From assembly GCF_009649685.1 (NCBI RefSeq), contig NZ_WJPK01000002.1, positions 412,202-476,201 of the forward strand: DNA of 64,000 nucleotides. The letters run 5' to 3'. The notes under the pieces were generated by a model. It was not told where the DNA came from. It did no database searches and saw nothing but the letters and a program-made list of their open reading frames with translations. The translations under genes and the position numbers were made by a program. Positions 29,298 through 62,422 of the stretch are shown piece by piece (position 1 is the first letter of the stretch; every line of letters starts with the position of its first letter). This DNA is from Flavobacteriaceae bacterium EG-1. Its GTDB lineage: Bacteria > Bacteroidota > Bacteroidia > Flavobacteriales > Flavobacteriaceae.

Positions 29298-29379
29298 TTT
29301 TGTAAATTGTTATTTAAAATATTTCGTTTGTTACTCGATATTGAATTTAAGGACAGTATCGATAACTCTATTTTATAGA

Positions 29380-40479: not shown

Positions 40480-40742
40480 ACCGCTTAATTTTAAAACTAT
40501 TTAGTTTTGAAAATAGTTAAAATGAATGACTCCAATCAACAAAAAACAAAATAAATCTTAAAGCCTTAATACAACGAATGCTCTTTTTAGGCAAAGTATA
40601 TCAATTTTTAAATTCCTTGTGATATTATAGTTTACACCTTTCAATTTACTTGTACCTTTTAGTATCTTGTACTTCATTATAAAAAGACCTATTCAAACCA
40701 TTCATCATGCAAAAAAAACAAACAAAACTATCGTCCAGCAAT

Positions 40743-42074
40743 ATGGATTCTAGAAGAAAATTTATTAAAAAAAGCTCTATGGCTTTTTTAGCAGGCAGTA
40801 TACTACCACAATTTAGCGCTAAAAGTTACAGTCAAATTATTGGCGCTAACGAACGAATTAAAGCCTCAGTAATGGGAGTTAATAGTCGTGGTAATGCATT
40901 AGCTCAAAATTTCGCTAGTCAAAACAATTGCGATGTTATTCATGTTTCAGATGTAGATAATAGGGCAATTACGAAATGCTTAACAGGTCTTAAAGAGCGT
41001 CAAAATATAAAAGTAAAAACATATACCGATTTCCGTAAATCTTTAGAAAGTAAAGATGTTGATGTATTGGTAATTGCTGCCCCTGATCATTGGCATGCAC
41101 CAGCGTCACTACTAGGAATGCAGGCGGGCAAGCATATATATGTAGAAAAGCCTTGCAGTCATAATCCTAAGGAAGGTGAAATTCTTGTTGAAGCCGCTAT
41201 TAAATACAATAAGATTGTTCAAATGGGTAACCAACGACGATCTTGGCCAAATGTAGTTGCTGGAATTAATGCTATTAAAAATGGAGAAATAGGCAACGTA
41301 TATTTTGGCAAAGGATGGTACACCAACAACAGGGCATCTATTGGTGTAGGCCAAGAAACAGCAGTGCCAGATTGGCTTGATTGGGAACTTTGGCAAGGCC
41401 CTGCACCGCGCAAAAATTTCAAAGACAATATTGTTCATTATAATTGGCATTGGCTTTGGCATTGGGGTACTGGCGAAGCATTAAATAATGGCACTCACAT
41501 GGTTGATCTTTTAAGATGGGGTATGGATGCTGAATATCCAACTAAGGTTAGTTCGAATGGAGGACGATACCGTTATTCAGATGACTGGGAAACACCGGAC
41601 ACCCAAGTAATAAATCTTGATTTTGAAGGAGGCAAGACCATGTCGTGGGAAGGCAGAAGTTGTAATGGAAAACCAATAGAAGGTAGTGCCGTCGGGGTCA
41701 TGTTTTATGGAGATAATGGAAGCCTACTAATCCCATCAGGTAATAGTTATACTCAATTTGATTTAAAAGGTAACATTGTAAAAGAAGTAAAACCAACCGA
41801 AATTATAGACCCAAGAAATAAAAGTAATCCAGCAGAAAAACTGGATGCCTTACACATACAAAATATGTTTGAAGGAATTCGCAATGGTGGAACCTTAAAC
41901 GCAGATGTAGATTCAGGTCACAAGAGTACTTTATTAGTTCAGTTAGGTAATATTGCGCAGCGTGTTGGACAAACATTAGACATTGATGATTCTAACGGCC
42001 ATATAAAGGATAACGCTGACGCCCAAAAACTATGGAGTCGTCAGTATGAGAACGGATGGGAAATGAAATTATAA
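40743..42074 (+). CDS. Tat-exported Gfo/Idh/MocA-family oxidoreductase
   Basis: The ATG at 40743 opens MDSRRKFIKKSSMAFLAG, a twin-arginine signal; an in-frame ATG at 40707 adds 12 residues. The Rossmann domain follows with ASVMGVNSRGNALAQNF and the signature VYVEKP-type segment HIYVEKPCSHNP, with C-terminal alpha/beta domain. Exported members of this family in planctomycetes and Bacteroidota carry bound NAD(P) and turn over sugars or polyols in the periplasm; the substrate is unknown. It is divergent from the sulfatase and coupled to a second family member 9 bases after it. Confidence 0.87.
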   Translation: MDSRRKFIKKSSMAFLAGSILPQFSAKSYSQIIGANERIKASVMGVNSRGNALAQNFASQNNCDVIHVSDVDNRAITKCLTGLKERQNIKVKTYTDFRKSLESKDVDVLVIAAPDHWHAPASLLGMQAGKHIYVEKPCSHNPKEGEILVEAAIKYNKIVQMGNQRRSWPNVVAGINAIKNGEIGNVYFGKGWYTNNRASIGVGQETAVPDWLDWELWQGPAPRKNFKDNIVHYNWHWLWHWGTGEALNNGTHMVDLLRWGMDAEYPTKVSSNGGRYRYSDDWETPDTQVINLDFEGGKTMSWEGRSCNGKPIEGSAVGVMFYGDNGSLLIPSGNSYTQFDLKGNIVKEVKPTEIIDPRNKSNPAEKLDALHIQNMFEGIRNGGTLNADVDSGHKSTLLVQLGNIAQRVGQTLDIDDSNGHIKDNADAQKLWSRQYENGWEMKL

Positions 42075-42083
42075 AATTATACT

Positions 42084-43079
42084 ATGCAGAACAGAAGATC
42101 ATTCATCAGCAAATTAAGTAAAGGCTCAGCATTATCTGCGCTTGCAATTGCAAGTCCGGTTTCACTCTTTCCTCAATTTAATGTAAAAAATAATAACACC
42201 GCCAAACCATTTAAAATAGGAATTATAGGTGCTGAAAATTCACATACAGCTGGATTTGGAAAACTCTTTAATATTGAAAAGGCTTTTCCCAATATGGAAG
42301 TTAAGTATGTCTGGGGTGAAACTGAAGAGTTTGCTAAAATTGCCATGGAAAAAGGTAGTATTCCTAATATGGTAAAGAACCCCAACGATATGTTGGGTAA
42401 AATAGACGGACTAATCGTTGACCATAGACATGGAAAGTTTCATTTAGAACCCGCTATTCCATTCATAAAAGCCGGCATTCCTACATTTATAGATAAACCT
42501 TTTTGCTATCGTGCAAAGGAAGGAAAAGCATTCTTAGCCCTTGCTAAAAAACACGGGACGCCTGTAACTTCATTTAGCTCTATTGCCCATAGTTATGAGA
42601 CTTTTGACATAAAAGAACAACTTAAAAATTATAAAGAAATTAATCAGGTGGTGCGGTATGGTCCTATTAAATTGGATTCAAAATATGGTGGTATTTTCTT
42701 TTATGGTGCTCATATTGTACAACCCATTTTATACCTTTTCGGGAATAATGTAAAAAAAGTTCAAGTACACGAAAATGGTCAAAATAGCAGCGCTAGTTTA
42801 GTATTTGAAAATGGCATGCTCGTAACTCTTGTATCTACAACTAAAAAATATGGTTGGGAAACTCATATTGAAACGGAAGAAGGAATTATTCCTTTACAAG
42901 CAAAGTCACAAGAAAAATCACCGGGCAAAAACTATGTAGATATGGTAGAAATGTTTAAAACCGGTAAAGAACCACGAAGTCATGAAAGTATTTTGTATTG
43001 TGTGACTGTCCTTGAAGCTCTAGAAAAATCAATTAGTAGTGGACAATGGGAAAATGTGACCCCACTTGAACAAATTTAA
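42084..43079 (+). CDS. Second Tat-exported Gfo/Idh/MocA-family oxidoreductase
   Basis: A 331-residue paralogue of the upstream gene with its own Tat signal (MQNRRSFISKLSKGSALS). IGIIGAENSHTAGFGKL is the Rossmann motif, with a histidine in place of the usual glycines, and FIDKPFCYRAKEG the conserved Lys-Pro segment. It lacks part of the C-terminal lid found in the first protein. Two consecutive exported paralogues probably act as partners or on successive substrates (inference). Confidence 0.85.
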   Translation: MQNRRSFISKLSKGSALSALAIASPVSLFPQFNVKNNNTAKPFKIGIIGAENSHTAGFGKLFNIEKAFPNMEVKYVWGETEEFAKIAMEKGSIPNMVKNPNDMLGKIDGLIVDHRHGKFHLEPAIPFIKAGIPTFIDKPFCYRAKEGKAFLALAKKHGTPVTSFSSIAHSYETFDIKEQLKNYKEINQVVRYGPIKLDSKYGGIFFYGAHIVQPILYLFGNNVKKVQVHENGQNSSASLVFENGMLVTLVSTTKKYGWETHIETEEGIIPLQAKSQEKSPGKNYVDMVEMFKTGKEPRSHESILYCVTVLEALEKSISSGQWENVTPLEQI

Positions 43080-43283: not shown

Positions 43284-44555
43284 TTAATCAAATAAACTTG
43301 GAAGCCATAGTGATATTTCAGGGATTAAAGTCACCAATATCAATACCATAAAACTAACAATTAAAAACGGGAAACCAGATTTAGCAACTTCACCTATTGA
43401 AATTTTTCCAATACTTGAAGCAACAAAAAGACAAACTCCAACCGGTGGTGTCGTTAAACCTATGATGAGATTTAAAACAGCAATTACAGCAAAATGAATA
43501 GGGTCAACTTCAACAGCAATAGCTACTTTTAATAATATAGGAAAAAGTATTAAAAGCGCTGCTATAGTCTCCATAAATGTTCCAACTACAATCAACAAAA
43601 GATTAATAAGCAAAAGGACTACATATTTATTAGTTGTAAAGCCTAGAATCTCGCTTGATATAGTCTGCGGAATTTGCTCAGTAATCAAAATATACCCAAA
43701 CAAATTTGCAAAACCAACCAGCACCATTAAAGACGCTGATGTTTTCATGCTATCTAAAATAACAACCTGAATATTTTTAAAATTTAATTTTTTATACACA
43801 AAAAATCCAATAATTAATGCATACAACACTGCTATAATAGAGGCTTCTGTAGGAGTGAATATCCCTCCAATTATTCCATATAGAATAATGAAAGTCATTA
43901 ATAGCGACCAAAAGGTATCTACAAAACCTCGTGCAACTTGACCCAAACTACTACGTTCATGTTTTGGATAATTTTTCTTCTTTGAAATAAAGTATGCTGT
44001 AAATAGCAATCCAACTCCTAAGAGTAAACCAGGTAGAGCACCTGCCAAAAATAATTTTCCAACAGACAATCCACTTAGTGTTGCTGCAATAATCATTGGT
44101 ACACTTGGAGGAATAATTGGACCTACTGTTGAAGATGCTGCCGTAACAGCACAAGAAAATCCAGCATCATAACCTTCTTTCTTCATAGCAGGTATCATTA
44201 TAGATCCCATACTTGCCGTATCTGATATAGCGGTGCCAGAAATTCCTGCAAAAAGCATAGAAGCTCCAATATTTACCAAAGAAAGCCCTCCTCTAATATG
44301 CCCCAATAAATGATTACAAAATGAAATTATCTTTTCTGTTAAACCACCATGGTTCATTAAATTACCTGCCATTATAAACCCTGGAACACTTAACAATACA
44401 AAAACATCAATGCCCGAATACATTTTCATAGGCACAATAATTAAAGGGATACCATTAATGAGTAAATAGCTTAAACAAGCCAAACCCAAAGAAAAAGCAA
44501 TAGGGAAACGGAGTACTAAACATATAGCAAAAACAAGTACTAAGACCCAAATCAT
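43284..44555 (-). CDS. TRAP transporter large membrane subunit (DctM-like)
   Basis: A 423-residue polytopic protein of about 12 membrane segments with the DctM/SiaM signature SVPGFIMAGNLMNHGG near residue 55 and the GTAISDTASMGSIMIPAM loop. It couples solute uptake to a sodium or proton gradient together with the small subunit and receptor upstream. It is the last gene of the nine-gene operon. Confidence 0.92.
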   Translation of the reverse strand: MIWVLVLVFAICLVLRFPIAFSLGLACLSYLLINGIPLIIVPMKMYSGIDVFVLLSVPGFIMAGNLMNHGGLTEKIISFCNHLLGHIRGGLSLVNIGASMLFAGISGTAISDTASMGSIMIPAMKKEGYDAGFSCAVTAASSTVGPIIPPSVPMIIAATLSGLSVGKLFLAGALPGLLLGVGLLFTAYFISKKKNYPKHERSSLGQVARGFVDTFWSLLMTFIILYGIIGGIFTPTEASIIAVLYALIIGFFVYKKLNFKNIQVVILDSMKTSASLMVLVGFANLFGYILITEQIPQTISSEILGFTTNKYVVLLLINLLLIVVGTFMETIAALLILFPILLKVAIAVEVDPIHFAVIAVLNLIIGLTTPPVGVCLFVASSIGKISIGEVAKSGFPFLIVSFMVLILVTLIPEISLWLPSLFD

Positions 44556-44560
44556 ACCTT

Positions 44561-45016
44561 CTATTTTGTAAAATTCTTAATAATCTTAAATATTAAATAA
44601 TAACAAATTGAAACTGACATAATAAACATGCTAAAGAATGCCACTCCCATATTAAAACCCATACTAGGTGATTTCTCAGCCAAACCTTGTATTACAAAAT
44701 GTATAGAATAGAATGCCATAATTAAAAAAAGAATTAAAGACATCACAGGTATCACAGCTAATAAAAAGCGTTGAAAGTTTTTCGAAAACCGACTATAAAA
44801 CATCTCTAAATGAACATAATAATCACTTTTCATCGCCAAACCAGCAGCAAAAGCCATAGCATAAATAAAAAAGATACGAGATGCTTCTTCGGTCCAAGAA
44901 GGTGTTGAAATCGGCGTAAAACGACATGTAATTTGTATTACCACAGTTAAAATCAACCCCCATGTGCTAATTAACACGCCGTATTTTAATAAACGACCAA
45001 CGGTTTTACGCAGCAT
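44561..45016 (-). CDS. TRAP transporter small membrane subunit (DctQ-like)
   Basis: A 151-residue protein of four membrane segments (YGVLISTWGLILTVVIQI first) with the TEEASRIFFIYAMAFAAG segment of DctQ proteins. It starts inside the receptor gene (11-base overlap) and lies 5 bases before the large subunit gene. Confidence 0.9.
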   Translation of the reverse strand: MLRKTVGRLLKYGVLISTWGLILTVVIQITCRFTPISTPSWTEEASRIFFIYAMAFAAGLAMKSDYYVHLEMFYSRFSKNFQRFLLAVIPVMSLILFLIMAFYSIHFVIQGLAEKSPSMGFNMGVAFFSMFIMSVSICYYLIFKIIKNFTK

Positions 45017-46016
45017 CTTTTTCAGCTTTTAATTGATGGTAAATCTCCTGCATTTCTGGGGACAAACTTTCGAAAATAGCTTTTTCGCTTTTCTTTTGAA
45101 AAGCATCTTTATCAACTTCAATAAACTCCATCCCTTTAGACTTTAATTCTTCTTGGACACTTTTTTCATTTTCCAAAAAAAGTCGGTGTTCATAGGCTTG
45201 CATATCTCTTCCTGCTTGCAAAAAAATTTCCTGAAGATCTGGTGGTAATTTTTGAAATTGCTTTTCTCCAACAACTGGATATACCCAACTCAATACATGA
45301 CCTGTAAGATTTAAATATTTCTGAACCTCAGCAAATCCGGCATTATTTATCATGGCAAAAGGATTTTCCTGGGCCTCAATAGTTCCTTGTTGTAAAGAAG
45401 TGAATACCTCAGAAAATGCCATCGGAGTAGGCTTGGCTCCTAACGCTTTCCAAGTATCAACAAAAGAAGGCACATTTGGCACACGTATTATTAACCCTTT
45501 TAAATCATCAGGATGTCGAATAGGTCTATTGGAAGTAAGATGTCTTTCACCTCGCTGAAAATGCCCCAATGCCCGAAGACCTGATTTTTCAATCATTTCA
45601 GTTTCCATTAATTTTCCTATTGGACCTTTAATATAACGCTGCATATCAATAGAATCCTGCATTAAAAACGGAAGTTCACAAAAAGTAGCAACTTCAAACC
45701 AATTGGTTAGGGTAGAACCTGTTGTGGTCATATCTATAACCTCGGCTTGTATAAGTCTAATTGCTTCAATTTCCTTCGCTAATTGTTCGGAAGGATACAC
45801 CTGTACTTGTATTCTTCCTTTAGAACGCTCTTCAATAATTTCACTGAAATATTCGAAGGCCTTATACCACGTGTGATTTTCATTTACCAATAGCGCGGTT
45901 CGAAATAAAAACTCTGGTTCAGGTTCTTTAGTTTTACAACTCAACAATAAAAGCATAGTGAATATAAGCAACAATGCTTTTGCCGTTAATTTCACAAATT
46001 GCTCTTTATTCTCCAT
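45006..46016 (-). CDS. TRAP transporter solute receptor lipoprotein (DctP-like)
   Basis: A 336-residue receptor with lipobox TMLLLLSCKT (lipoprotein form). The DctP fold is seen in VNENHTWYKAFEYFSEII, GRIQVQVYPSEQLAKEIEA and the carboxylate-binding RVPNVPSFVDTWKALGA region with conserved arginine. Most TRAP receptors bind carboxylic acids, so the operon likely imports an organic or amino acid. It overlaps the small subunit by 11 bases. Confidence 0.92.
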   Translation of the reverse strand: MENKEQFVKLTAKALLLIFTMLLLLSCKTKEPEPEFLFRTALLVNENHTWYKAFEYFSEIIEERSKGRIQVQVYPSEQLAKEIEAIRLIQAEVIDMTTTGSTLTNWFEVATFCELPFLMQDSIDMQRYIKGPIGKLMETEMIEKSGLRALGHFQRGERHLTSNRPIRHPDDLKGLIIRVPNVPSFVDTWKALGAKPTPMAFSEVFTSLQQGTIEAQENPFAMINNAGFAEVQKYLNLTGHVLSWVYPVVGEKQFQKLPPDLQEIFLQAGRDMQAYEHRLFLENEKSVQEELKSKGMEFIEVDKDAFQKKSEKAIFESLSPEMQEIYHQLKAEKDAA

Positions 46017-46020
46017 TATC

Positions 46021-46602
46021 TTATTCGTACACTTCCACTATCATTTCTATTTCTACAGCAATATTACCAGGCAAAGAACCCATCCCAACTGCTGCTCTGG
46101 CATGTTTACCATTCTCTCCAAATACCGATACCATTAAATCGGAATAACCATTAATTACTTTTGGATGATCACCAAAATTTGGTGATGAATTTACCATCCC
46201 TTTTACTTTTACTATTCTTTTTACTTTATTTAAATTACCCAGCTCACTTTTTAAAACTGAAAGTTGGTTAATTCCAGTAATTCTAGCAGCTTCGTATCCT
46301 TGCTCAATGGTTAAATCTTCTCCAACTTTACCTATAATATCTTCGCCATTCGCCTTTTTAGGGCCTTTACCGGCTAAAAAAATTAGATTGCCAGTACGCA
46401 CTGCGTTCACATAATTTGCTACGGGAGATGATGGCGGTGACAAAGCTATTCCTAGTTCTTTTATTTTTGCTTCCGGATTATAATCTGGATCAATCAATTC
46501 TTTTGCTTCAATTGAATTTTCTACCTCCTGTTTTTGCTCTATAACCTGATTACATGAAACAAACAAAATTAAGGATAGCAGAAAAAATATAGTTCTTTTC
46601 AT
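46021..46602 (-). CDS. Exported RidA-family protein (lipoprotein)
   Basis: A 193-residue RidA/YjgF protein with an N-terminal lipobox (LILFVSCNQ). The domain starts NYVNAVRTGNLIFLAGKG and includes VKRIVKVKGMVNSSPNF and ARAAVGMGSLPGNIAVEIEMI, the position of the imine-binding arginine. RidA hydrolyses reactive enamines and imines released by PLP dehydratases. Household RidA is cytoplasmic, so a lipid-anchored form is unusual. It lies between the PLP enzyme and the TRAP receptor genes. Confidence 0.88.
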   Translation of the reverse strand: MKRTIFFLLSLILFVSCNQVIEQKQEVENSIEAKELIDPDYNPEAKIKELGIALSPPSSPVANYVNAVRTGNLIFLAGKGPKKANGEDIIGKVGEDLTIEQGYEAARITGINQLSVLKSELGNLNKVKRIVKVKGMVNSSPNFGDHPKVINGYSDLMVSVFGENGKHARAAVGMGSLPGNIAVEIEMIVEVYE

Positions 46603-46618
46603 TTTAACTATTTAAACA

Positions 46619-47851
46619 TTAAGCATTTTCTAATATTTCTTTTACTCTACTGGCTACAATTCTTTCTTGGCCAGGCTCCATCATCCATGTAGTTATGCCT
46701 ACTTCTTTTTTATTACCAACAGTTTCTATTGAAGGATGACCATCTCTCAACTGCTTCCGCATCTCATCTTTGGATATTTTTACAACACTTTCATCCCAAT
46801 GAATTTTTAAACTTGGCACATGATTCGCATAAGGTGGCACATGAATTTTGGTTTCTACACCTTTTACAGATTTGGCACTATCACTAATCAATTTAATTTG
46901 ATTTTCCCATAATTCCCATTCTTTATCATGATCCCTTCCTAAATATAACTCTAAAGCAACTAACATTCCTAAAACTTCTTCTTTATTTACTTTCATACCT
47001 CTAGCAATGGTTGTACCCCTAGGCGGCGTATGAAGTCTGGCTGCTTCAATATACTTTCTTTTACCTAATAATAATCCTGCACTTTGTGGCCCTCGAATAC
47101 CTTTTCCGCCAGAAAACGCAACCAAGTCAAAGCCCATTTTGGTAAATTTAAATAGGTTATCTACAGGCGGCACATCGGCAGCACAATCAATAAATGTTGG
47201 AATATTATGTTTCTTACCCAAAGCCACAAATTCTTCCCATTTAATATCACCAGCATCCGTATTAGCATTCAAATACCAGAGCATGGCTGTATTTTTAGTA
47301 ATTGCCTTCTCTAAATCTTTTGCTGTTTTAACTGAAACTATTTTAGCACCAGTATTAATTAGGGCATGAGTATACCCAATTGCATGTGCTTCTTGCACAA
47401 TAACTTCATCTTTTATTCCAGTAGTGTCTGGTAATTGCGCTACCTTTTTAGTATCTGTGCCACACATAACACCTGCAAGACCTATTGTCATAGCACCAAA
47501 ACATCCTGAGGAAACAGTTGCATATTCACAATCTAGAAGCTCGGCAATTCTATCTCCAACCTTATCATGTAATTCATCTAAATTAACATATTCTGTAGCT
47601 CCATAATTAATTGCTTCTGTTACTTCTTTATGCATTAAAGAGCCAGTCATAGAAGTGTATGTTCCAGCCGCATTTATAAAAGTACGTATGCCTAATTCTT
47701 TAAAAAAATCTCGTTTTAAAGGTTCGGTTATCGGGCAAGCTAATTTTGATGCTACTTTACTACTTGTTGCTCCTAAAATACTTGGTCCTAACATTCCACC
47801 CACTAAAGGTAATGCCGATATTGTTTTTAATGCTTTTCTTCTACTGCTCAT
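46619..47851 (-). CDS. SelA-like PLP enzyme with Tat signal
   Basis: Start at ATG 47851 (MSSRRKALKTISALPLVGG), a twin-arginine signal; an upstream TTG only adds residues. The 410-residue protein matches the SelA-related, D-glucosaminate-6-phosphate ammonia-lyase-like PLP family, with FSGGKGIRGPQSAGLLLG carrying the PLP lysine and FINAAGTYTSMTGSLM near the N-terminus. Such enzymes eliminate ammonia from amino acids or amino sugar acids. Export by Tat fits a folded cofactor-bound enzyme. Two RidA genes flank it, which fits an enamine product. Confidence 0.85.
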   Translation of the reverse strand: MSSRRKALKTISALPLVGGMLGPSILGATSSKVASKLACPITEPLKRDFFKELGIRTFINAAGTYTSMTGSLMHKEVTEAINYGATEYVNLDELHDKVGDRIAELLDCEYATVSSGCFGAMTIGLAGVMCGTDTKKVAQLPDTTGIKDEVIVQEAHAIGYTHALINTGAKIVSVKTAKDLEKAITKNTAMLWYLNANTDAGDIKWEEFVALGKKHNIPTFIDCAADVPPVDNLFKFTKMGFDLVAFSGGKGIRGPQSAGLLLGKRKYIEAARLHTPPRGTTIARGMKVNKEEVLGMLVALELYLGRDHDKEWELWENQIKLISDSAKSVKGVETKIHVPPYANHVPSLKIHWDESVVKISKDEMRKQLRDGHPSIETVGNKKEVGITTWMMEPGQERIVASRVKEILENA

Positions 47852-47873
47852 AATTTTTAAATTTACTTTTTCA

Positions 47874-48350
47874 CTAATCAACCGCTGCTATACAATCCAT
47901 TTCAACTAAAGATTTTCCTGGCACACCACCATAAGTTGCTACCGTAGTTCTAACCGGTGGGTTTTTTCCGAAACGTCCACGAAAAACCTCATTCATACCT
48001 TTATAATCTGCTAAATCGGCGAGGTATACATTTACCTTTAAAACCTTATCCATAGAAGAACCATTTCGCTCAAGTTCTTTTTGTAGTTCTTGCAAAACTA
48101 TTTCTGTGTGCGCTTTTATTTCAAAAGGCTCAACATGTGCTCCTTTTCCAGCAATATATAAAGTATTACCATGTTTTACTGCACCTGAAAAAAGTGGAAT
48201 ATCTTGATCAGTTACAATATCACCAACGACCTCTTTTTTTGTACTCTTTTGTTTTTTGGTCATTGCACTTACAGAGCCCACACCTAAAATTGTTGCCAGA
48301 CCCATTCCAATTTTTTTAAACGATGCTCTTCTTGTTGTTTTTTGTTCCAT
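47874..48350 (-). CDS. Exported RidA-family protein (Tat signal)
   Basis: A 158-residue RidA protein with an N-terminal TTRRASFKKIGMGLATIL twin-arginine-like signal. The core contains HGNTLYIAGKGAHVEP, KVNVYLADLADYKGMNE and PVRTTVATYGGVPGKSLVEMD, with the arginine before TTVAT at the imine-binding position. It lies 23 bases before the SelA-like gene and is a second exported RidA in the same operon. Confidence 0.87.
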   Translation of the reverse strand: MEQKTTRRASFKKIGMGLATILGVGSVSAMTKKQKSTKKEVVGDIVTDQDIPLFSGAVKHGNTLYIAGKGAHVEPFEIKAHTEIVLQELQKELERNGSSMDKVLKVNVYLADLADYKGMNEVFRGRFGKNPPVRTTVATYGGVPGKSLVEMDCIAAVD

Positions 48351-48381
48351 TTTTATTTTTTTAGTGTTATTTTTTATTCAT

Positions 48382-49473
48382 TTACTTTACTTCATTTTTA
48401 ATTTTTTCTGGGTCTTTATCTCGCCAATACAATGCAAGTGATGAACCTGAAATATTCATCCAAGGACCGAAAACTGCTGGTGCTAATCCTACCGTAGCAA
48501 CTTTACCCATCTCAAGAGCAATACCCGATGCCAATCCTCCATTTTGCATTCCTACTTCTAAAGCAATTGTACGACAATCTCTTTCATCCATCTTAAAAAG
48601 ACGACATCCCCAATATCCAAGAAAATATCCTGCTGCATTATGAACTATTGCGGCTACAATTAAAAACAACCCAATGGATAGCAAACTATCTCTCCCAGCT
48701 GCAGTAATTACCATAATTATTAATGCTATCCCAGCCATAGAAAGAATAGGCATGGCTTTGTCTAGCCAAGGAGTCTTTCCATGAAAAAAGTGATTAAATA
48801 CAAGTCCTCCTATAATTGGTAAAATGACCATTTTAACAATACTCCACATCATTCCCCAAAAATCAATCGGTACAAATTCACCTGCAAAGAATTCCATTAA
48901 AGTAGGTGTCATTAATGGAGCTAACATAGTAGCCACCGCAGTTAATGTAACCGATAGTGCTACATTTGCCCTTGCCAAATAAGCCATTACATTTGAAGCT
49001 AATCCACTTGGCGAAGAACCAATTAAGACTACCCCTGCTGCAATTTCTGCTGAAAACCCAAAAATACTAGCAATAGTAAATCCTAATATTGGCATAATTG
49101 TAAATTGGCATACCAAACCAACCAAAACCCCTTTGGGCATTTTTATTACTCCAACGAAATCGTTAAAGCTCATAGCTGTACCCATACCAAACATAATTAT
49201 TTGAAGTAAGGGAACAATTAATCTTTTCATTTGAAAATCACCAATCTGTACAAACGGCTGTGGATAAAACATTGATAAAGAAACTGCACCGAATATTAAT
49301 ATAGCAAAAGAAAAACCTTTGAAAGTCCTATGTTGTTTTGCGGTTAATGCCAAAAACAAAAAGAATAACACCAAAAATGGACCCGAAGAATCAACCTTTC
49401 CCAGAACCAACATTATTATAAAAATAATGAGACATATTGCTGATACTCCTAAAAGTAATTTGTTGTTTTTCAT
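48382..49473 (-). CDS. Bile-acid:sodium symporter-family transporter
   Basis: A 363-residue protein of about ten membrane segments with the family motifs MFGMGTAMSFNDFVGV, AAGVVLIGSSPSGLASNVM and the ALEVGMQNGGLASGIALEMG sodium-site loop. It probably takes up or releases an organic anion with sodium. In this operon it may handle the keto acid or amidated substrate of the exported enzymes (inference). Confidence 0.9.
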   Translation of the reverse strand: MKNNKLLLGVSAICLIIFIIMLVLGKVDSSGPFLVLFFLFLALTAKQHRTFKGFSFAILIFGAVSLSMFYPQPFVQIGDFQMKRLIVPLLQIIMFGMGTAMSFNDFVGVIKMPKGVLVGLVCQFTIMPILGFTIASIFGFSAEIAAGVVLIGSSPSGLASNVMAYLARANVALSVTLTAVATMLAPLMTPTLMEFFAGEFVPIDFWGMMWSIVKMVILPIIGGLVFNHFFHGKTPWLDKAMPILSMAGIALIIMVITAAGRDSLLSIGLFLIVAAIVHNAAGYFLGYWGCRLFKMDERDCRTIALEVGMQNGGLASGIALEMGKVATVGLAPAVFGPWMNISGSSLALYWRDKDPEKIKNEVK

Positions 49474-49517
49474 TTCTATACTAAGTTAGTCATTGATTTT
49501 GGCGTTATAAGATAATA

Positions 49518-50768
49518 TTATTCATCCCAAGGAACCGCAGCAAGACCATTTAAATCATAAACAACCTTACCATCCCTAATTGTTAATTCACATTCCAATT
49601 TTTTATTCCCATCCATTCGCTTCCCTTTGGTATCAATAAAACCAAAATCACCTTCGCGTATATTTAAAATAGTAACATCAGCTACAGCCCCTTTTGAAAG
49701 ATGACCTAATTCTTCTCTCTTAATTGCTTTAGCTGAATTCCAGGTAGTAGCTGCAATAATATCTGCAACTGGCATGTCCATATTTAAAAATTTAGACATG
49801 ATGTTAACAATGTCTTTCATACCACCGTTCATACTTCCAGTATGCAAATCGGTACTAATTGTATTTGGAATAAAACCTTGTTTCATAGCAGGCACTGCTT
49901 GTTCAAAAAGAAAACTTCCACCGCCATGTCCTACATCGAAAATGATGCCTCTTTTTTGTGCAGCCCATGCAAATTCTTCTACCTTTCCATTTTCATTAAC
50001 AATTGGGGTACGACCATTTACATGAGCATAAGCATGTGTAAATATATCTCCCGGGCGAAGTTTCTCCATAAATAAAGTCTCTAGTGAAAGCTCTGGTTGA
50101 CTACCTCCAAAGTCAATTACAACAGGTTTGTCGGCAAGTCTTCCAGCCTCAGCAGCACGTTCAGTTGGAGTCCAGTCGAAACCAGAATAATGCGCTAATT
50201 TTACGCCGACAATTTCATTTGGAAACTGCTTTGCCACAATAGCCGTAAGCTTCGAATCCATATCTGCTATATTTTGTTCTATGGCACCTCCTTTCATACC
50301 AGATCCAACAATATTCAAAAACGACAAGACTCTAGTCTTTGATTGATCGATTACATTTTCTTTAAATTGTCTAAAATTGCGCCAACCAGCTCCGCCACAA
50401 TCAACTAAAGTTGTCACTCCACTTCTAAACGAAAAACCATCTGGAGGTAAGGCAGTAAAACTATTACTGAGATAAGCATTATGCTCTGTTCCATGAAAAT
50501 TATGACTATGAATATCTATAAGACCAGGAGACACTAATAACCCTTTAGCATCAATTATTTTTTTTGCCTTCTTTTCTGAAATAGATTTAGCTACCTCAGC
50601 TATTTTTCCTTCTTTAATAGCAAGGTCTGAAACTTTATCAATTCCATTTTTGACATCTATCAAACGACCGTTCTTTATTAGGATGTCATATTCTTGTGCA
50701 TTAAAAACTAGACTACTGAATAAGAATAATAACGTCATTAGTCGTGTAAGGCATATCATATTTTTCAT
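49518..50768 (-). CDS. Secreted amidohydrolase (dihydroorotase / D-amino-acid deacylase-like)
   Basis: A TIM-barrel amidohydrolase with signal peptide (LMTLLFLFSSLVFNAQ); ATG 50768 is preferred over an upstream TTG. The metal ligands are seen in GLIDIHSHNFHG (HxH), VGVKLAHYSG (a lysine region), FTHAYAHVNG and NTISTDLHTGS. It is most like the metallohydrolase family that is paired with SelA-like PLP enzymes in gene-neighbourhood reports, so a deacylase making the amino acid for the next step is plausible. Confidence 0.87.
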   Translation of the reverse strand: MKNMICLTRLMTLLFLFSSLVFNAQEYDILIKNGRLIDVKNGIDKVSDLAIKEGKIAEVAKSISEKKAKKIIDAKGLLVSPGLIDIHSHNFHGTEHNAYLSNSFTALPPDGFSFRSGVTTLVDCGGAGWRNFRQFKENVIDQSKTRVLSFLNIVGSGMKGGAIEQNIADMDSKLTAIVAKQFPNEIVGVKLAHYSGFDWTPTERAAEAGRLADKPVVIDFGGSQPELSLETLFMEKLRPGDIFTHAYAHVNGRTPIVNENGKVEEFAWAAQKRGIIFDVGHGGGSFLFEQAVPAMKQGFIPNTISTDLHTGSMNGGMKDIVNIMSKFLNMDMPVADIIAATTWNSAKAIKREELGHLSKGAVADVTILNIREGDFGFIDTKGKRMDGNKKLECELTIRDGKVVYDLNGLAAVPWDE

Positions 50769-50784
50769 AATCTTTAAATTCAAA

Positions 50785-52545
50785 TTATTTTGTGGATACT
50801 TTTATTGGTCCGTTATTCTCTTTATTTTCTTCAATCTTTTTTCTTGATTCAGAGACCTGCTCTGCGCTTATTTCTGAAGCTGAATTACCAAAGTTTGATC
50901 TTATATAGGTAAGTATTTGAGCTATCTCTTGATCTTTTAAAAATGAATGTTGCGGCATTACTCCATTATAAACTTCACCATTAACCTCAAGGCTTCCTTC
51001 CATACCTTTCAGTAAAACTTGTATTAATCGGTTACTATCCCCTGTAACCCAATCTGTATTTACTAATGGCGGAAATCTTCCTGAAGCACCTTTACCATTA
51101 GTTTGATGACATGCACTACAATACTGATAGTATAGTTTTTCACCACCTACAGCATCATTCTTCATTAAATTATCTTTTATTATATCTGGAGTACGAACAT
51201 TTGAAGCTTTTTTACGCTTTTCCATGGCAATGAGCTGATTTTCATTAAAATCTTCTTTTTTACCATCATAGCTAACTTTCCAAATTTTGCCTCTTACAGA
51301 ATCAGAAATATAGAGTGCACCATCTGGCCCTACAGCTAGCCCCATTGGTCTGTGTGCAGCATCTTTGGTATTTATTATAGGATCAACTTCAGCAAATCCA
51401 TCTGCAAAAATTTCGTATTCTTCACTAAACTTACCATCTATAAACGGCACAAATCCAACCACGTAACCTGATTGCGGATAAGGTGCTCGATTTGTTGAAC
51501 CATGAAACGCAATAAAGGCCCCATTTTTATATCGCTCTGGAAACTGGTCTCCTTGATAAAATAATAAATCATTAGGTGCCCAATGACCAGGAAAACCAAT
51601 AATAGGATCATCAAATTCAGCACATCGACCTATAACATCTCCATCACCACCATATTCAGGTGCCAGTACTTTTTTACCTTTTACTTGATCATAATAACAA
51701 TAAGGCCATCCAAAATTAGAACCTTCTGTTACTTTAATAAATTCTTCAGAAGGCAACAAAGCACTTTCTTGAGGTGTATACAAATTTGGCCAAAGACGCA
51801 ACAAATCGTCTCTTCCATGTACTACGGCATAAAGTTCTTCATCAACAGGATTCCAATTCATTGCTACCAAACTTCTAATACCTGTAGCGTATTTATAACC
51901 ATCCTTTTGTGTTTGACCCAATTTATTTGCATCAAACCGCCATACACCACCATGATTATCTAATTGTGGACAAGGATCCAATCCAGGGGCACCTGGGGTT
52001 CTCTTTGGACTTTGACATGCATTTGAAGGTGCTCCAAATGGCACATATATATGTCCTTTATTATCAAATGCAATTGGCTTTCCAATGTGTTCGTGCTTAC
52101 CATGTTCATGATCATCAGTTACCACAACTTCAACTTCACCCTCTGGAAGCAAGGAACCGGAGATTAACTTTTGACGATATACAACAAGATCTGAACTATA
52201 ATATAAATAACCATTGTATATACGCATAGCAGTTGCATAACTCCATCTGGATTTCTGACCTTTTCCAAAACGTTCTATTTCATCTGCTTTAACATCACCA
52301 TTGGTATCTTTTAGGGCTATTGCCACCCCTTTCTCTGTAGAATTTCTAAGTTTAGCGTAAATGACATGATCATCATTAACAGCCATATGTCTCACCGTTT
52401 CACTAATACTATCTACAACTACTGCCGAGCTAAATCCATCAGGTAATAACAATTTGCCATCAACAGGATTTTTTTTGCAAGTAGAAAAAAACAATATCAA
52501 TAATGAAAAAAAGACAAAGCCCCTTAATTTGAAAAGTAACTTCAT
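50785..52545 (-). CDS. PQQ-type dehydrogenase lipoprotein with C-terminal cytochrome c
   Basis: A 586-residue lipoprotein (lipobox ILFFSTCKK). A six-bladed beta-propeller of the glucose/sorbosone dehydrogenase group spans most of the chain (NEELYAVVHGRDDLL-type and GLAVGPDGALYISDSVRGKIWKVSY-type blades). From about residue 470 a cytochrome c domain has YCSACHQTNGKGASG and a later MPQHSFL methionine ligand. It would oxidise a substrate outside the inner membrane and pass electrons to the heme. It is the first gene of the tightly spaced operon. Confidence 0.87.
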   Translation of the reverse strand: MKLLFKLRGFVFFSLLILFFSTCKKNPVDGKLLLPDGFSSAVVVDSISETVRHMAVNDDHVIYAKLRNSTEKGVAIALKDTNGDVKADEIERFGKGQKSRWSYATAMRIYNGYLYYSSDLVVYRQKLISGSLLPEGEVEVVVTDDHEHGKHEHIGKPIAFDNKGHIYVPFGAPSNACQSPKRTPGAPGLDPCPQLDNHGGVWRFDANKLGQTQKDGYKYATGIRSLVAMNWNPVDEELYAVVHGRDDLLRLWPNLYTPQESALLPSEEFIKVTEGSNFGWPYCYYDQVKGKKVLAPEYGGDGDVIGRCAEFDDPIIGFPGHWAPNDLLFYQGDQFPERYKNGAFIAFHGSTNRAPYPQSGYVVGFVPFIDGKFSEEYEIFADGFAEVDPIINTKDAAHRPMGLAVGPDGALYISDSVRGKIWKVSYDGKKEDFNENQLIAMEKRKKASNVRTPDIIKDNLMKNDAVGGEKLYYQYCSACHQTNGKGASGRFPPLVNTDWVTGDSNRLIQVLLKGMEGSLEVNGEVYNGVMPQHSFLKDQEIAQILTYIRSNFGNSASEISAEQVSESRKKIEENKENNGPIKVSTK

Positions 52546-52700: not shown

Positions 52701-53444
52701 TTATTCAAATATAATTGAACCGAAAAATTCTGGTCGATGAAAATCAGGGCGTTCAGTAGTAATTGAATTCCAGCTTAAATAATGTTCCTCTGCACTTTTG
52801 TCTCCACACTTATAAAAATTAGCACTACTATTTAAGCCTTTTAATTGAAGAGCCTTGTTGTATGTTAAACTAGAAGCAGGTATTACTATTGTCATTTCCC
52901 AAGAATGAGCACCTGTAATTTCGTTAAATGGCTCGTCCCCTAAAGTAGAACTAATTTGAATTTCATTCTGAATGATTTCGGGTGCTATAAAATTTCGATT
53001 ACCCCTGCCAGGCCCATAGGCTAAATGAGTAGTGCCTATACAATTAAACTCAAAATTATAATAACTGCCATTTCCCAATGGATCAAAGAAAAATTCAACA
53101 CAACTATCGGTATGCACAGCACCATTAGTTTCTGCTATAACCGCTCGAATACTTTTCTCCTTCACATAATATTTAAGCCAAATTTGATTATTGTTATGCG
53201 CAATTCTAAATTTAACATCAGGCGAGTATTGATATGTATCCCAATTAAGAACACTAATAGAATGCAATTCAGAATTTAATTCCAATAATTCGGATACTTT
53301 CTTAAGATCTGCACTTCCTGCATACTCTATTTCTTTAACTTTTAACACCTTCTTAGATTTTGAATTTTGCGCAATTACTGAACCAAATAAGCAAATACAC
53401 AAGAACGTAATTAATTTTCTTTTCATTTTCATTTTCATTTTCAT
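52701..53444 (-). CDS. Secreted CBM9-like carbohydrate-binding protein
   Basis: A protein of about 247 residues with a signal peptide (LITFLCICLFGSVIAQ), then a beta-sandwich of CBM9 type: VKFRIAHNNNQIWLKYYVKE, SCVEFFFDPLGNGSYYNFEF and SWEMTIVIPASSL. Four tandem in-frame ATG codons come from a TTTCAT hexamer repeat (53421-53444) and a further ATG lies at 53465, so the exact start is not certain. It may bind a substrate for the dehydrogenase operon downstream. Confidence 0.78.
   Translation of the reverse strand: MKMKMKMKRKLITFLCICLFGSVIAQNSKSKKVLKVKEIEYAGSADLKKVSELLELNSELHSISVLNWDTYQYSPDVKFRIAHNNNQIWLKYYVKEKSIRAVIAETNGAVHTDSCVEFFFDPLGNGSYYNFEFNCIGTTHLAYGPGRGNRNFIAPEIIQNEIQISSTLGDEPFNEITGAHSWEMTIVIPASSLTYNKALQLKGLNSSANFYKCGDKSAEEHYLSWNSITTERPDFHRPEFFGSIIFE
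53421..53444 (-). repeat. Hexamer repeat over the start of the CBM9-like gene
   Basis: Four perfect copies of TTTCAT on the plus strand (ATGAAA on the coding strand) give tandem Met-Lys pairs at the N-terminus. Copy number changes would keep the frame but vary the number of start codons and the length of the basic n-region. Confidence 0.75.
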
Positions 53445-53590
53445 TTTCCTTAAAACAAGATACATATTAAAAATGAACTTAATTGAATATTACTTGTCTT
53501 CATGAAGATTAAAGCATTAGAATTAAAATATAAGCTTTAAAATTTAATAACGAATTATTAACATTTTATTTACAAACCCATGAAAATCAA

Positions 53591-55394: not shown

Positions 55395-57938
55395 ATGAGA
55401 AACATAAAAAAGCTAGTTGTTCTTTTTATTTTCACTGTTTTATTTAGTTGCGGTGTGGATAAACCGGCAGATGTAGTGCTGGCATATGACAAACTGCCTG
55501 AAGAAATTGATTTCAATTTTCATGTTAGACCCATTTTATCCGACCGTTGCTTTAATTGTCATGGACCAGATGAAAACACCAGAAAGGCCAATTTAAGATT
55601 AGACACCGAAGATGCTGTTTTCTCAGTCATTCCTGGCAAAGAGACCTTCCCAATAGTAGCAGGTAAGCCAGAAAAAAGTGAACTAATAAATAGAATTCTT
55701 ACTGATGATCTTAATTTGATAATGCCCACACCAGAATCCAATTTAATTTTAACCGCTGAAGAAAAAGCTATTCTAATAAAATGGATAGAACAAGGAGCAA
55801 AGTGGAAAACACATTGGGCATATAATCCACCGGTAAAGTCAGATTTACCCGAGGTTGAAAATAATTCATGGCCTAAAAATGAAATCGATTACTTTGTATT
55901 AAATAAGTTGGAATCAATGGAATTGCAACCTTCTAATGAAGCTGATAAGGAAACTTTAATTCGAAGGCTATCATTTGATTTAAATGGTTTACCCCCTACT
56001 CCTGAAGAAATTCGAATTTTCATAAACGATAAGGCTAATAACGCATATGAAAAACTTGTAGACCGCTTACTTGAATCCAATAGGTATGGCGAGCGTTGGG
56101 CTTGGGAATGGTTAGACGTTGCCAGATATGCCGACACAAATGGATTTCAAGGAGATTTTACACGTGATATGTGGCCGTGGCGCGATTGGGTAATACGTGC
56201 TTTTAATGAAAATATGCCCTATGACCAGTTTACTATTAAACAAATAGCCGGCGACCTATTACCTGATGCTTCACGTGAAGATATTATGGCTACAGCCTTT
56301 AACAGAAATCATCCATACAATACAGAAGGCGGAACAATACCCGAAGAAACTAGAGTTGTTAATGTTTTTGATCGTGTTGAAACCACCGGTACTACCTGGT
56401 TGGGATTAACCATGAATTGTGCCCGATGCCATGATCATAAATATGATGCAATTTCTCAAAAAGAATATTATCAACTGTTTGATTATTTTAATCAAACTTC
56501 AGAAGAAGGCGGTAATTGGGGTGGACAAATTAAGCCTGTACTAAATTTAAGTTCTAAAGAAAAAAGAGATGAAATGGCTGCCATACAGAAATATGCAGAC
56601 AAATTAGTAGCAAAGGTTGACCATTACGAGGATGAGAAATTTCCGAGAGCTTCTGGTTTACCCGTATCGGAATCAAAAGTTGCAAAAAAATTAAAAGGTC
56701 TAGATCCAAGAATCTTACTAAAACCACCTAATAAAAGAGGGTCTGGTAATTTAAAAACCTTGGCGAACTACTTTGCTAACAAAGACAAAACTTATGCGAA
56801 TCTTTTAAAAGATGCATACATAGAACAAGAAAAACACAACAAATTAGCAGCTACTTCTACGATGGTTATGGTTATGGATGAACGCGAAGAACCTCGAACC
56901 ACTTTTATACTTAATAGAGGTGGTTATAATAATCCGCAAGTAGAGGATACTATAGTTAGAAATGTACCTGCCGTATTACCTCCTTTACCAAAGGAAATTG
57001 AAAACAATCGTTTGACTTTAGCTAAATGGTTAGTTTCTAAAGAACAACCTTTAACCGCTCGTGTAACTGTAAATCGATATTGGCAGCAATTTTTTGGGAA
57101 TGGAATTGTAAAAACAATAGAAGACTTTGGTGTACAAGGTGCTTTACCTAGTCATCCTAAATTATTAGATTGGTTAGCGGTTGATTTCCAAGAAAACAAC
57201 TGGAATTTAAAGCGCCTTTTAAAAAAAATAGTAATGAGTTCCACCTACAGACAGTCGTCTAAAGTTTCGGGTAAACTCTTACAAAAAGACACTGAAAACA
57301 AATATTTGGCAAGGGCAACACGTATGCGATTACCCTCTTGGATGCTCCGAGATCAAGCACTTTATATTAGTGGTTTGATGGTAGATTCTATAGGTGGCAA
57401 ACCCGTAAAACCCTATCAACCAGAAGGAATTTGGGCCGAAGCAACTTTCGGACTACGCTCTTATGAACAAGACAAAGGCAATGCTTTATATAGACGCTCT
57501 TTATATACTTTTTGGCGAAGAATAGTTGGACCAACTTTTCTATTTGACAATGCATCTAGACAGTTATGCTCAGTAAAATCATTTAACACAAATACACCCC
57601 TACACGCCTTAACTACATTAAATGATATTACTTATTCGGAAGCTGCAAGGGTAATGGCCGAAAATATAATTACTCACGTAGAGGATGACTCTGAAAGGCT
57701 TAAATATGCGTTTAAAAAAAGTACAGGACGCTTAATTAAAGCGGAGGAGTTTAAAATTTTAAACGATAGATTAACTTCATTAAGAAAAGATTTTTACGAG
57801 AACAAAAAAGAAGCATTGGCTTTAACAACAATAGGCGAATACAAAAGTAATAAGGAAATTGATTTAATAGATCATGCTGCATATACGGCTATATGCTCTT
57901 TACTTTTAAATTTAGATGAAACTATAAATCGGCAGTGA
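55395..57938 (+). CDS. PSCyt1 - DUF1549 - DUF1553 protein (planctomycete-type), shorter form
   Basis: An 847-residue lipoprotein (lipobox FTVLFSCGV, Cys19). PSCyt1 heme motif RCFNCHGPDENTRKANLRL; DUF1549 core RYGERWAWEWLDVARYADTNG; a second heme-like NCARCHDHKYDAIS site and the DUF1553 region LTARVTVNRYWQQFFGN. It lacks the long insert of the protein at 32246-35266. Both copies keep the CARC/AKCHDHK motif, so both probably bind two hemes. The stop overlaps the next start. Confidence 0.9.
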   Translation: MRNIKKLVVLFIFTVLFSCGVDKPADVVLAYDKLPEEIDFNFHVRPILSDRCFNCHGPDENTRKANLRLDTEDAVFSVIPGKETFPIVAGKPEKSELINRILTDDLNLIMPTPESNLILTAEEKAILIKWIEQGAKWKTHWAYNPPVKSDLPEVENNSWPKNEIDYFVLNKLESMELQPSNEADKETLIRRLSFDLNGLPPTPEEIRIFINDKANNAYEKLVDRLLESNRYGERWAWEWLDVARYADTNGFQGDFTRDMWPWRDWVIRAFNENMPYDQFTIKQIAGDLLPDASREDIMATAFNRNHPYNTEGGTIPEETRVVNVFDRVETTGTTWLGLTMNCARCHDHKYDAISQKEYYQLFDYFNQTSEEGGNWGGQIKPVLNLSSKEKRDEMAAIQKYADKLVAKVDHYEDEKFPRASGLPVSESKVAKKLKGLDPRILLKPPNKRGSGNLKTLANYFANKDKTYANLLKDAYIEQEKHNKLAATSTMVMVMDEREEPRTTFILNRGGYNNPQVEDTIVRNVPAVLPPLPKEIENNRLTLAKWLVSKEQPLTARVTVNRYWQQFFGNGIVKTIEDFGVQGALPSHPKLLDWLAVDFQENNWNLKRLLKKIVMSSTYRQSSKVSGKLLQKDTENKYLARATRMRLPSWMLRDQALYISGLMVDSIGGKPVKPYQPEGIWAEATFGLRSYEQDKGNALYRRSLYTFWRRIVGPTFLFDNASRQLCSVKSFNTNTPLHALTTLNDITYSEAARVMAENIITHVEDDSERLKYAFKKSTGRLIKAEEFKILNDRLTSLRKDFYENKKEALALTTIGEYKSNKEIDLIDHAAYTAICSLLLNLDETINRQ

Positions 57939-59422
57939 TGAAGAAAAAAATCTTACATCCATTTGAAGAATATCAAGCCCAAATAACACGTAGAAATTTT
58001 TTCGGAAAAATGGCTATGGGTATTGGAGGCTTGGCACTAGGGTCTATGGTAAACCCATTATCATTATCTGCTGCTGCTACGAACCCAAAAGTTTTAAATT
58101 CCACTATTGGAGGTATACCTCACTTTACACCTAAGGCTAAAAGAATTATTTATCTTTTTCAAAATGGTGCTCCTTCACATGTAGATTTATTTGATTATAA
58201 ACCCTTACTTAAAAAGTGGCATGGAAAACAAATTCCAGATTCACTTACTGCAGGAAAACGCTTTTCTACCATGACCGGTGAACAAGCGGCAAGACCAATA
58301 ATTGGAGAAATCAGCAACTTTGCACAACATGGAAATAGCGGAGCATGGGTTTCCGATTTTATGCCAGAAACTGCAAAAATTGTTGACGACCTTTGTTTTA
58401 TAAAATCAATGTATACAGAATCTGTTAATCACGCTCCGGCAATTACATTTTTTCTTACTGGTTCCGAACAACCGGGAAGACCAAGTTTGGGCTCATGGTT
58501 AACATACGGATTAGGTAGTACTGCAAAAGACCTACCTGATTTTGTTGCAATGACTTCAAGAGATAAAGAAGCTAGTTGCGGCCAAATTTTCTATGATTAT
58601 TATTGGGGAAGTGGTTTCTTGCCAACCAAATTTCAAGGTGTAAAATTCCGAGGAGGTGGCGACCCTGTTTTATATTTAAAAAATCCTGATGGGATGAGTC
58701 GTAAAATGCGTCGCAAAATACTGGATGACATGCAGGCTCTAAATGAAATTAACCATGCAAATTATGGCGACCCCGAGATACAAACACGTATTGCGCAATA
58801 CGAAATGGCTTATAAAATGCAAATGAGCGTACCTGAACTTACTGATTTTTCAGATGAACCACAACACATCTTAGATATGTATGGCCCAGATGTGCATCGA
58901 AAAGGAAGCTATGCATACAACTGTCTAATGGCTCGAAGATTAGCAGAACGTGATGTACGTTTTATACAATGCATGCACGCCGGGTGGGACCAACATACCA
59001 ATTTAAATTATCAACTAATAACCCAATGCAACGACACTGATAGAGCAAGTGCTGCTTTAATAAAAGATTTAAAACAACGTGGAATGCTCGAAGATACTCT
59101 CGTTATTTGGGGAGGAGAATTTGGGCGCACACCCTTTCTGCAAGGCAATATTAAAGACGTACGCAATTGGGGTAGAGACCATCACCCATATGTCTTTACA
59201 TTATGGATGGCTGGTGCTGGTGTAAAACCTGGATTTACCTATGGTGCCTCTGATGAGTTTGGTTTTAACCCCATTGAAACACCTGTTCATGTTCACGATT
59301 TTCAAGCTACTATAATGCACTTAATGGGCATTAACCATGAACAGTTTACTTTTAAACACCAAGGTAGACGCTATCGACTAACAGATGTTCACGGGCATGT
59401 TGTTAAAGATTTATTGAGTTAA
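57938..59422 (+). CDS. DUF1501 protein with Tat-like signal (second copy)
   Basis: ATG 57938 overlaps the previous stop as TGATG. The Tat signal is TRRNFFGKMAMGIGGLAL. Family motifs parallel those of the first copy: RIIYLFQNGAPSHVDLFDY, MYTESVNHAPAITFFLTG, WDQHTNLNYQL and WGGEFGRTPFLQGN. The pair with the gene at 55395 repeats the pair at 32246-36711, which is why a common extracytoplasmic complex is inferred. Confidence 0.92.
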   Translation: MKKKILHPFEEYQAQITRRNFFGKMAMGIGGLALGSMVNPLSLSAAATNPKVLNSTIGGIPHFTPKAKRIIYLFQNGAPSHVDLFDYKPLLKKWHGKQIPDSLTAGKRFSTMTGEQAARPIIGEISNFAQHGNSGAWVSDFMPETAKIVDDLCFIKSMYTESVNHAPAITFFLTGSEQPGRPSLGSWLTYGLGSTAKDLPDFVAMTSRDKEASCGQIFYDYYWGSGFLPTKFQGVKFRGGGDPVLYLKNPDGMSRKMRRKILDDMQALNEINHANYGDPEIQTRIAQYEMAYKMQMSVPELTDFSDEPQHILDMYGPDVHRKGSYAYNCLMARRLAERDVRFIQCMHAGWDQHTNLNYQLITQCNDTDRASAALIKDLKQRGMLEDTLVIWGGEFGRTPFLQGNIKDVRNWGRDHHPYVFTLWMAGAGVKPGFTYGASDEFGFNPIETPVHVHDFQATIMHLMGINHEQFTFKHQGRRYRLTDVHGHVVKDLLS

Positions 59423-61395: not shown

Positions 61396-61503
61396 TTAAT
61401 AGTATAAAGTTTATTTACTTATTAAATCGAATATATTTATTTGACGATTTTTTATTAGTTTAAATTTAACTTAAGATTATATTTAATTTTTAATCAAAAT
61501 CTA

Positions 61504-62352: not shown

Positions 62353-62367
62353 TTCTGTACTCATAAA

Positions 62368-62401
62368 ATATAAAAGCCAGTCAATAAACTAGCTTTTATA
62401 T
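62368..62401. terminator. Hairpin between convergent genes
   Basis: ATATAAAAGC pairs with GCTTTTATAT across a 14-base loop. It lies between the deacetylase end and the end of the enolase-family gene and probably ends both transcripts. Confidence 0.7.
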
Positions 62402-62422
62402 TAGTTGAAGACATTTATACCG

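Follow-up and report, generated by a model that had tools for sequence, protein, structure and literature searches.

Why should a pyridoxal 5'-phosphate (PLP) enzyme, two RidA proteins and an amidohydrolase encoded together all carry export signals? This question was raised by a stretch of 64,000 nucleotides (the window) from Flavobacteriaceae bacterium EG-1 (contig NZ_WJPK01000002.1, positions 412,202 to 476,201). A preliminary description had claimed nine same-strand genes there and had proposed that an N-acyl amino acid or an amino-sugar acid is deacylated, deaminated and cleared of its enamine outside the cytoplasm, the products then being imported. All nine open reading frames (ORFs) were found at the coordinates given, spanning positions 43284 to 52545 on the minus strand, and the named families were borne out by profile matches (Table 1). 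The comparisons below support, at the level of sequence, the view that a signal-bearing PLP lyase-type enzyme, its RidA partners and a deacetylase-type amidohydrolase form a conserved unit. The reading that we favor, with a probability of about 0.5, is that this unit is an extracytoplasmic catabolic module in which an amino-sugar acid would be deacetylated and deaminated to a 2-keto-3-deoxy acid, the RidA proteins would clear the enamine and the product would be imported.

Export signals and conservation of the gene set

Export signals were assigned with simple in-house patterns, and ORFs shorter than 120 aa or cut at a contig end were excluded from the counts. By these rules the SelA-like PLP enzyme and RidA1 of the window have twin-arginine translocation (Tat)-like signals, the amidohydrolase a Sec-like signal, and RidA2 and the pyrroloquinoline quinone (PQQ)-cytochrome protein lipoprotein-like signals, as the preliminary description had predicted for these five enzymes. 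The solute-binding protein DctP was missed by the rule, its lipobox (LLSC) being visible nonetheless. Among relatives, the Tat-like rule was positive for 45/50 SelA-like and 33/34 RidA1 proteins versus 10/257 other ORFs, and in the five SelA-like proteins that failed it the RR was still present, directly followed by D or E. Relatives of RidA2 were Sec-like in 34/35 cases and had a lipobox in 27/35. The Sec-like rule was met by 32/39 amidohydrolases, and most of the seven misses were judged to have visible signals. With their twin-arginine signals and a TatC encoded in the same genome (214.6 versus 25.1 bits), the SelA-like enzyme and RidA1 are predicted substrates of the Tat translocase.

A genome-contig scan with the PLP enzyme as query, a single-protein search that reaches close relatives only, yielded 38 related loci, all of them Bacteroidota by title. 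Genes were counted wherever they lay in the available stretch, some loci being short contigs. Besides the SelA-like gene (38 loci), the set comprised the amidohydrolase (32), PQQ-cytochrome (31), RidA1 (30), RidA2 (30), RraA-like (24), CBM9 (21), BASS (19), a downstream esterase (14) and the tripartite ATP-independent periplasmic (TRAP) transporter (12), and the transporters were its most variable part. In the 20 loci with near-full flanks, the amidohydrolase, RidA1 and PQQ-cytochrome genes were each present in 19, CBM9 in 18, RidA2 in 17, RraA in 13, TRAP in 10 and BASS in eight.

Whole-genome counts, which do not depend on how these loci were chosen and in which the EG-1 genome is included, gave the SelA-like enzyme (E<=1e-40) in 33/397 genomes of the family and RidA1 (E<=1e-30) also in 33/397, the two genome lists being identical. 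Both genes lay at most 50 bases apart in 30 of the 33, the exceptions being G721, G843 and G919. A plain probability for this co-occurrence would be misleading because the genomes are related. At phylum level, the SelA-like enzyme was found in 8/395 genomes (E<=1e-20). The closest named relative by PLP enzyme was Aurantibacter crassamenti (90%), records very near the EG-1 genome having possibly been excluded.

In the tree of SelA-like enzymes, the exported Bacteroidota members formed one clade (50 sequences, support 1.0; L020 and L021 left out). A wider clade of 55 sequences (support 0.998) added L020, L021, two Granulicella enzymes and a Rhizobium gallicum protein. In Granulicella (Acidobacteriota), the genes for RraA, the SelA-like enzyme, RidA, a second PLP enzyme, the amidohydrolase and a lactonase adjoin one another, and all six N-termini of this cluster looked signal-like by eye. 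The second PLP enzyme is a different one and, with a Tat-like signal of its own, is encoded directly behind the RidA gene (L070, 7872-11299).

The SelA-like enzyme and its active site

Solved-structure searches covered the SelA-like, amidohydrolase and PQQ-cytochrome proteins. The predicted model of the SelA-like enzyme matched 7lc0 with a Z of 37.7 (rmsd 2.4 over 351 residues), and SelA was matched by fold as well. The protein remained below the curated cut-offs of TIGR01437 (189.9 versus 385.3 bits) and NF047797 (150.8 versus 600 bits). When the TIGR01437 model was run on 295 genomes of the class, 143 had matches, mostly short and weak, and none was above the cut-off.

According to the available text of the report on the lyase (PMC9529869), docking led to the proposal that three arginines bind the substrate phosphate, His163 is the proton donor, and the H163A variant releases its enamine, for which an absorbance near 293 nm is given. 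These positions were compared in the window enzyme and 51 relatives by alignment with 7lc0 at about 25% identity, on which the residue calls depend; ORFs of 300 aa or less were excluded. The PLP lysine was retained in 52/52, the phosphate-site arginines at 301, 332 and 346 in 0/52 at each position, and His163 in 1/52.

RidA proteins and the phosphate site

Both RidA proteins passed the cut-off of the Rid superfamily (PF01042, 27.3 bits) and remained below that of TIGR00004 (59.0 and 33.1 versus 106.25 bits). In RidA1, R134 and E150 were conserved in 35/35 rows, as were R169 and E184 of RidA2 in 35/35, and we take these arginines and glutamates to be the catalytic residues.

The H163A lyase releases its enamine and, therefore, loss of the histidine was expected to explain the RidA partners. 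This explanation, in which the lyase lacks its own proton donor, was contradicted by relatives from a plasmid collection.

In that set, from which SelA-like ORFs of less than 300 aa were excluded, a RidA gene was present in 7/7 relatives in which the HH pair is combined with a partial arginine site (RRC class), and in 0/7 having all three arginines (RRR; six with HH and one with AH), within the available stretch. Six of these full-triad relatives are annotated beside an amidohydrolase or a 2-keto-3-deoxygluconate 6-phosphate (KDGP) aldolase, and the seventh (L082) is without annotation. Six haloarchaeal enzymes have neither the HH pair nor the full triad, and RidA accompanies four of them; there is a single RidA for both Granulicella enzymes, and none for the Rhizobium gallicum protein. 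The full triad predicted the absence of RidA (0/7 versus 13/16, p 0.0005), whereas the HH pair was not predictive (p 0.67), the relatives representing a few clades and not independent events. The RidA profile had been seeded with RidA proteins from eight of the compared loci, and genes in four plasmid regions without annotated features were identified by our own profiles alone. These sequence comparisons suggest that the presence of RidA tracks the loss of the complete phosphate site rather than that of the HH pair, an association which we treat as a lead because few clades are involved.

Amidohydrolase, PQQ-cytochrome protein, aldolase and transporters

The amidohydrolase passed the cut-off of NF006689 and belongs to the PRK09237-type amidohydrolases/deacetylases. 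Its metal ligands H92, H94, K195, H250 and D312 were present in 38/38 rows, as in 2ogj. For the PQQ-cytochrome protein, both a PQQ sugar dehydrogenase domain (PF07995, cut-off 25 bits) and a quinoprotein fold were recognized, the best fold matches of its predicted model being the AA12 PQQ enzymes 6i1t, 6i1q, 6h7t and 6jt5. H153, conserved in 31/31 rows, and R224, in 30/31, presumably form the PQQ-site pair.

The RraA-type aldolase of the 24 loci (PF03737, 68.6 bits) has a signal-like N-terminus. The EG-1 genome encodes two partial RraA homologues at contig ends (58% identical over 127 residues) and a remote one, so that supply in trans is possible. The two partial genes (L065, 9606-10001; L066, 2-397; ends of contigs C5 and C3) are near-identical yet distinct, as if a repeat had broken the assembly. 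Three members of the KDPG-aldolase family and one GH20 are also encoded in this genome.

DctP, DctQ and DctM exceeded their family cut-offs and the sodium symporter matched the BASS family, which bears out the transporters named in the preliminary description; the symporter was under the PanS cut-off (243.6 versus 400). In L023 (14675-17999), and also in L027, L028 and L036, the TRAP genes are succeeded by oppositely oriented nagB-like, Nramp-like and nagA-type genes. The window has no such genes after its TRAP genes; a nagB-like gene (72%) is present at another site of the genome.

Proposed pathway and alternative explanations

From the gene set, its conservation, the export-signal motifs, the folds and the key residues, all observed by computation, we infer the reactions, their order and the substrate as follows. 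The lipoprotein PQQ-dehydrogenase/cytochrome would oxidize an amino sugar, yielding the aldonic acid, unless the latter arrives ready-made. The exported amidohydrolase would then remove the N-acyl group, and the Tat-exported SelA-like enzyme would eliminate water and ammonia via an enamine/imine to give a 2-keto-3-deoxy sugar acid, which would be 2-keto-3-deoxygluconate (KDG) if the substrate were glucosaminate. The exported RidA proteins would hydrolyze the released enamine/imine, and the 2-keto acid would be taken up through the TRAP or BASS carrier; in most relatives it may first be cleaved by the exported RraA-type aldolase. Of the earlier proposal, the signal-bearing PLP lyase-type/RidA/amidohydrolase set stood, by sequence, as a conserved unit. 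As to the substrate, the ong pathway and the haloarchaeal clusters described below speak for an amino-sugar acid more than for an N-acyl amino acid, as do the nagA-, nagB- or 2-epimerase-like genes that a minority of the Bacteroidota loci have nearby; an N-acyl amino acid may nevertheless be the substrate.

Several findings weigh against this pathway. RidA was present in 40/51 Bacteroidota members and missing from the available stretch in 11/51. For six of the 11 that stretch is no longer than 4.3 kb, but L051 and L052 retain the PQQ-cytochrome and amidohydrolase genes without RidA, and L055 (21 kb) has no partner gene at all. The RraA-type aldolase is absent from the window operon, its gene being missing between BASS and RidA1. 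In the EG-1 genome no PQQ synthesis gene was above the cut-off (PqqE model, 78 versus 381 bits), and PQQ may be taken up from outside. The nag-type genes are near few loci (nagB-like 7/38, nagA 4/38, 2-epimerase 3/38). Finally, the structure of Cap15 (8t7j), described as O2- and PLP-dependent, ties with 7lc0 as a fold match (Z 38.9 versus 37.7).

The same exported module could act on an N-acyl D-amino acid or another beta-hydroxy alpha-amino acid, the PLP enzyme being a dehydratase of the D-serine/D-threonine type. We consider this unlikely. The absent phosphate-site arginines fit any small non-phosphorylated substrate, and we count in its favor that the 2ogj amidohydrolase (Atu3266) prefers small alpha-acyloxy acids. 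The OngC deaminase also acts on D-serine and D-threonine, according to the available text (PMC9537276). However, sugar oxidation by a PQQ enzyme with an AA12-like fold, an RraA aldolase and the Granulicella lactonase would be hard to account for if serine or threonine were used, and the haloarchaeal neighbors include a glucose 1-dehydrogenase.

It is improbable that the SelA-like enzyme resembles Cap15 as an O2-dependent PLP enzyme, or PvdN as a carboxamide-forming one, in a module that modifies a compound instead of degrading it. The fold tie with Cap15 would agree with this, as would the unusual PLP reaction that PvdN carries out in the periplasm, as given in the available text (PMC6206403). 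Nevertheless, the RidA partners, the RraA-type aldolase and the carboxylate-type importers accord with a released enamine and a catabolic role, and the arginine triad kept in both 8t7j and 7lc0 is lost in the window enzyme. That the operon proteins act in the cytoplasm behind non-working signals, as might be suggested by ten counterparts (from alphaproteobacteria, one haloarchaeon and Klebsiella) in which no signal was seen by eye, is hardly credible, since the twin arginine (R14, R15) of the Tat-type signal is invariant in a 24-row alignment while model residues 1-55 are of low confidence, several signal types occur within one operon, and signal-like N-termini recur in Acidobacteriota.

Organization of the locus and neighboring genes

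Better starts were found for the amidohydrolase (ATG at 50768 instead of TTG at 50783) and for the SelA-like enzyme (ATG at 47851 instead of TTG at 47881). Counted from the coordinates after these shifts, the widest gap at a junction was 44 bases and the other extreme was an overlap of 11 bases (dctP/dctQ), so that the earlier range of 5-45 bases was nearly right. A tenth gene outside the earlier list, encoding a CBM9-like protein, lies 155 bases upstream of the PQQ-cytochrome gene. In the scan for sigma-70 promoters and terminators the counts were lower than the shuffle means, and the Rfam scan gave zero matches.

Table 1. Coordinates of the operon genes and the upstream neighbor in the window.
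Feature	Position	Strand	Evidence
CBM9-like exported protein	52701..53465	-	PF16011 228.2 bits; upstream neighbor in relatives, 21/38 loci
PQQ sugar dehydrogenase domain fused to cytochrome c, lipoprotein-type	50785..52545	-	PF07995 43.2 bits; PF00034 44.3 bits; CxxCH in 30/31 rows
Amidohydrolase/deacetylase, Sec-type signal	49518..50768	-	NF006689 440.7 bits (cut-off 371)
BASS-family sodium symporter	48382..49473	-	PF01758 132.9 bits
RidA1, Tat-type signal	47874..48350	-	PF01042 65.3 bits; Tat-like by rule
SelA-like PLP enzyme, Tat-type signal	46619..47851	-	PF03841 46.6 bits; PLP Lys 52/52; fold as 8t7j, 7lc0
RidA2, lipoprotein-type signal	46021..46602	-	PF14588 65.4 bits; PF01042 47.9 bits
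TRAP solute-binding protein DctP, visible lipobox	45006..46016	-	PF03480 255.2 bits; in 12/38 loci
TRAP small permease DctQ	44561..45016	-	PF04290 67.9 bits
TRAP large permease DctM	43284..44555	-	PF06808 405.5 bits

Other genes of the window, whose host genome is of 4.45 Mb, were also noted. Two Gfo/Idh-type oxidoreductases with Tat-like signals are encoded at 40707-43079, and such genes adjoin the operon region in L023 and L038 too. At 59593-63811, a YdjC-type carbohydrate deacetylase gene (61504-62352), a gene for a 600-aa protein without family match and an enolase-superfamily gene adjoin; they are possibly further amino-sugar or sugar-acid genes. Two pairs of a PSCyt1-DUF1549-DUF1553 gene and a DUF1501 gene, of the "planctomycete cytochrome" type, here in Bacteroidota, are located at 32246-36711 and 55395-59422. 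Finally, a zinc-protease/RimK fusion, a GNAT/carbon-nitrogen-hydrolase fusion, and agmatinase, deoxyhypusine-synthase-like and arginine-decarboxylase-like genes lie together at 24049-30828.

Comparison with known systems

The Dga-type lyase, whose substrate is phosphorylated, shares the SelA-like PLP fold and the PLP lysine with the window enzyme, and members of its family in other bacteria adjoin the same type of amidohydrolase. In contrast, it is cytoplasmic by sequence, has the arginine triad, works with a KDGP aldolase and not with RraA, and has RidA beside it in 0/7 relatives.

The ong pathway of Pseudoalteromonas for N-acetylglucosaminate (GlcNAc1A) comprises, in the available text of its report, the deacetylase OngB, the PLP deaminase OngC, which gives KDG, and the RidA protein OngD, needed for growth and with a role stated there as unknown (PMC9537276). 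As far as that text goes, it has in common with the window the logic of deacetylase, PLP deaminase and RidA acting on a non-phosphorylated substrate; it differs in being predicted cytoplasmic, in OngB being a D-aminoacylase relative, and in its SSS-family importer and KDG kinase. OngC is a fold-type III PLP enzyme there, whereas the window enzyme matches 7lc0, 8t7j and SelA, so that the two are not homologous and the likeness is one of working only.

A SelA-like enzyme, a Rid protein, a deacetylase and a sugar dehydrogenase are also common to the window and to haloarchaeal chitin clusters; in L072, L077 and L079 we found a PIG-L deacetylase, a glucose 1-dehydrogenase, a SelA-like enzyme and a Rid. 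As a difference, the single haloarchaeal SelA-like enzyme examined (L072) showed no signal peptide by eye. In the available text on these clusters, they are predicted, by prediction only, to use glucosaminate with phosphorylation, and their Rid-type gene (RutC) is read as a transcriptional repressor (PMC12343721). This gene would more simply encode an enzyme partner of the SelA-like lyase.

The combination of exported PLP and RidA enzymes had been thought undescribed. Exported PLP enzymes by themselves are not new, since PvdN and PtaA of Pseudomonas are exported folded by Tat and are active in the periplasm; they differ in serving siderophore tailoring and not catabolism, and no RidA partner appears in the available text on them (PMC6206403). 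For the RidA side, neither an exported RidA nor an exported version of the deacetylase/PLP/RidA pathway was found in the open-access literature among the matches listed. The logic of this pathway is already known from the cytoplasm, the predicted location of ong. In a fuller form of the proposed module, which we put forward tentatively and regard as rather doubtful, the whole amino-sugar branch would be periplasmic, from oxidation through deacetylation and PLP deamination to clearance by RidA and, in most relatives, aldol cleavage by RraA, with acetate, ammonia and keto acids made before import, and RidA partners would accompany the non-phosphorylated lyase versions and not the phosphorylated Dga version.

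If the proposed pathway is true, RidA and a SelA-like ammonia-lyase, which are regarded as intracellular, would work as a periplasmic metabolic pair. The reason why OngD is needed in the breakdown of non-phosphorylated amino-sugar acids would become testable, and a function would be given to a gene pair present in 33 of the 397 sampled genomes of the family.

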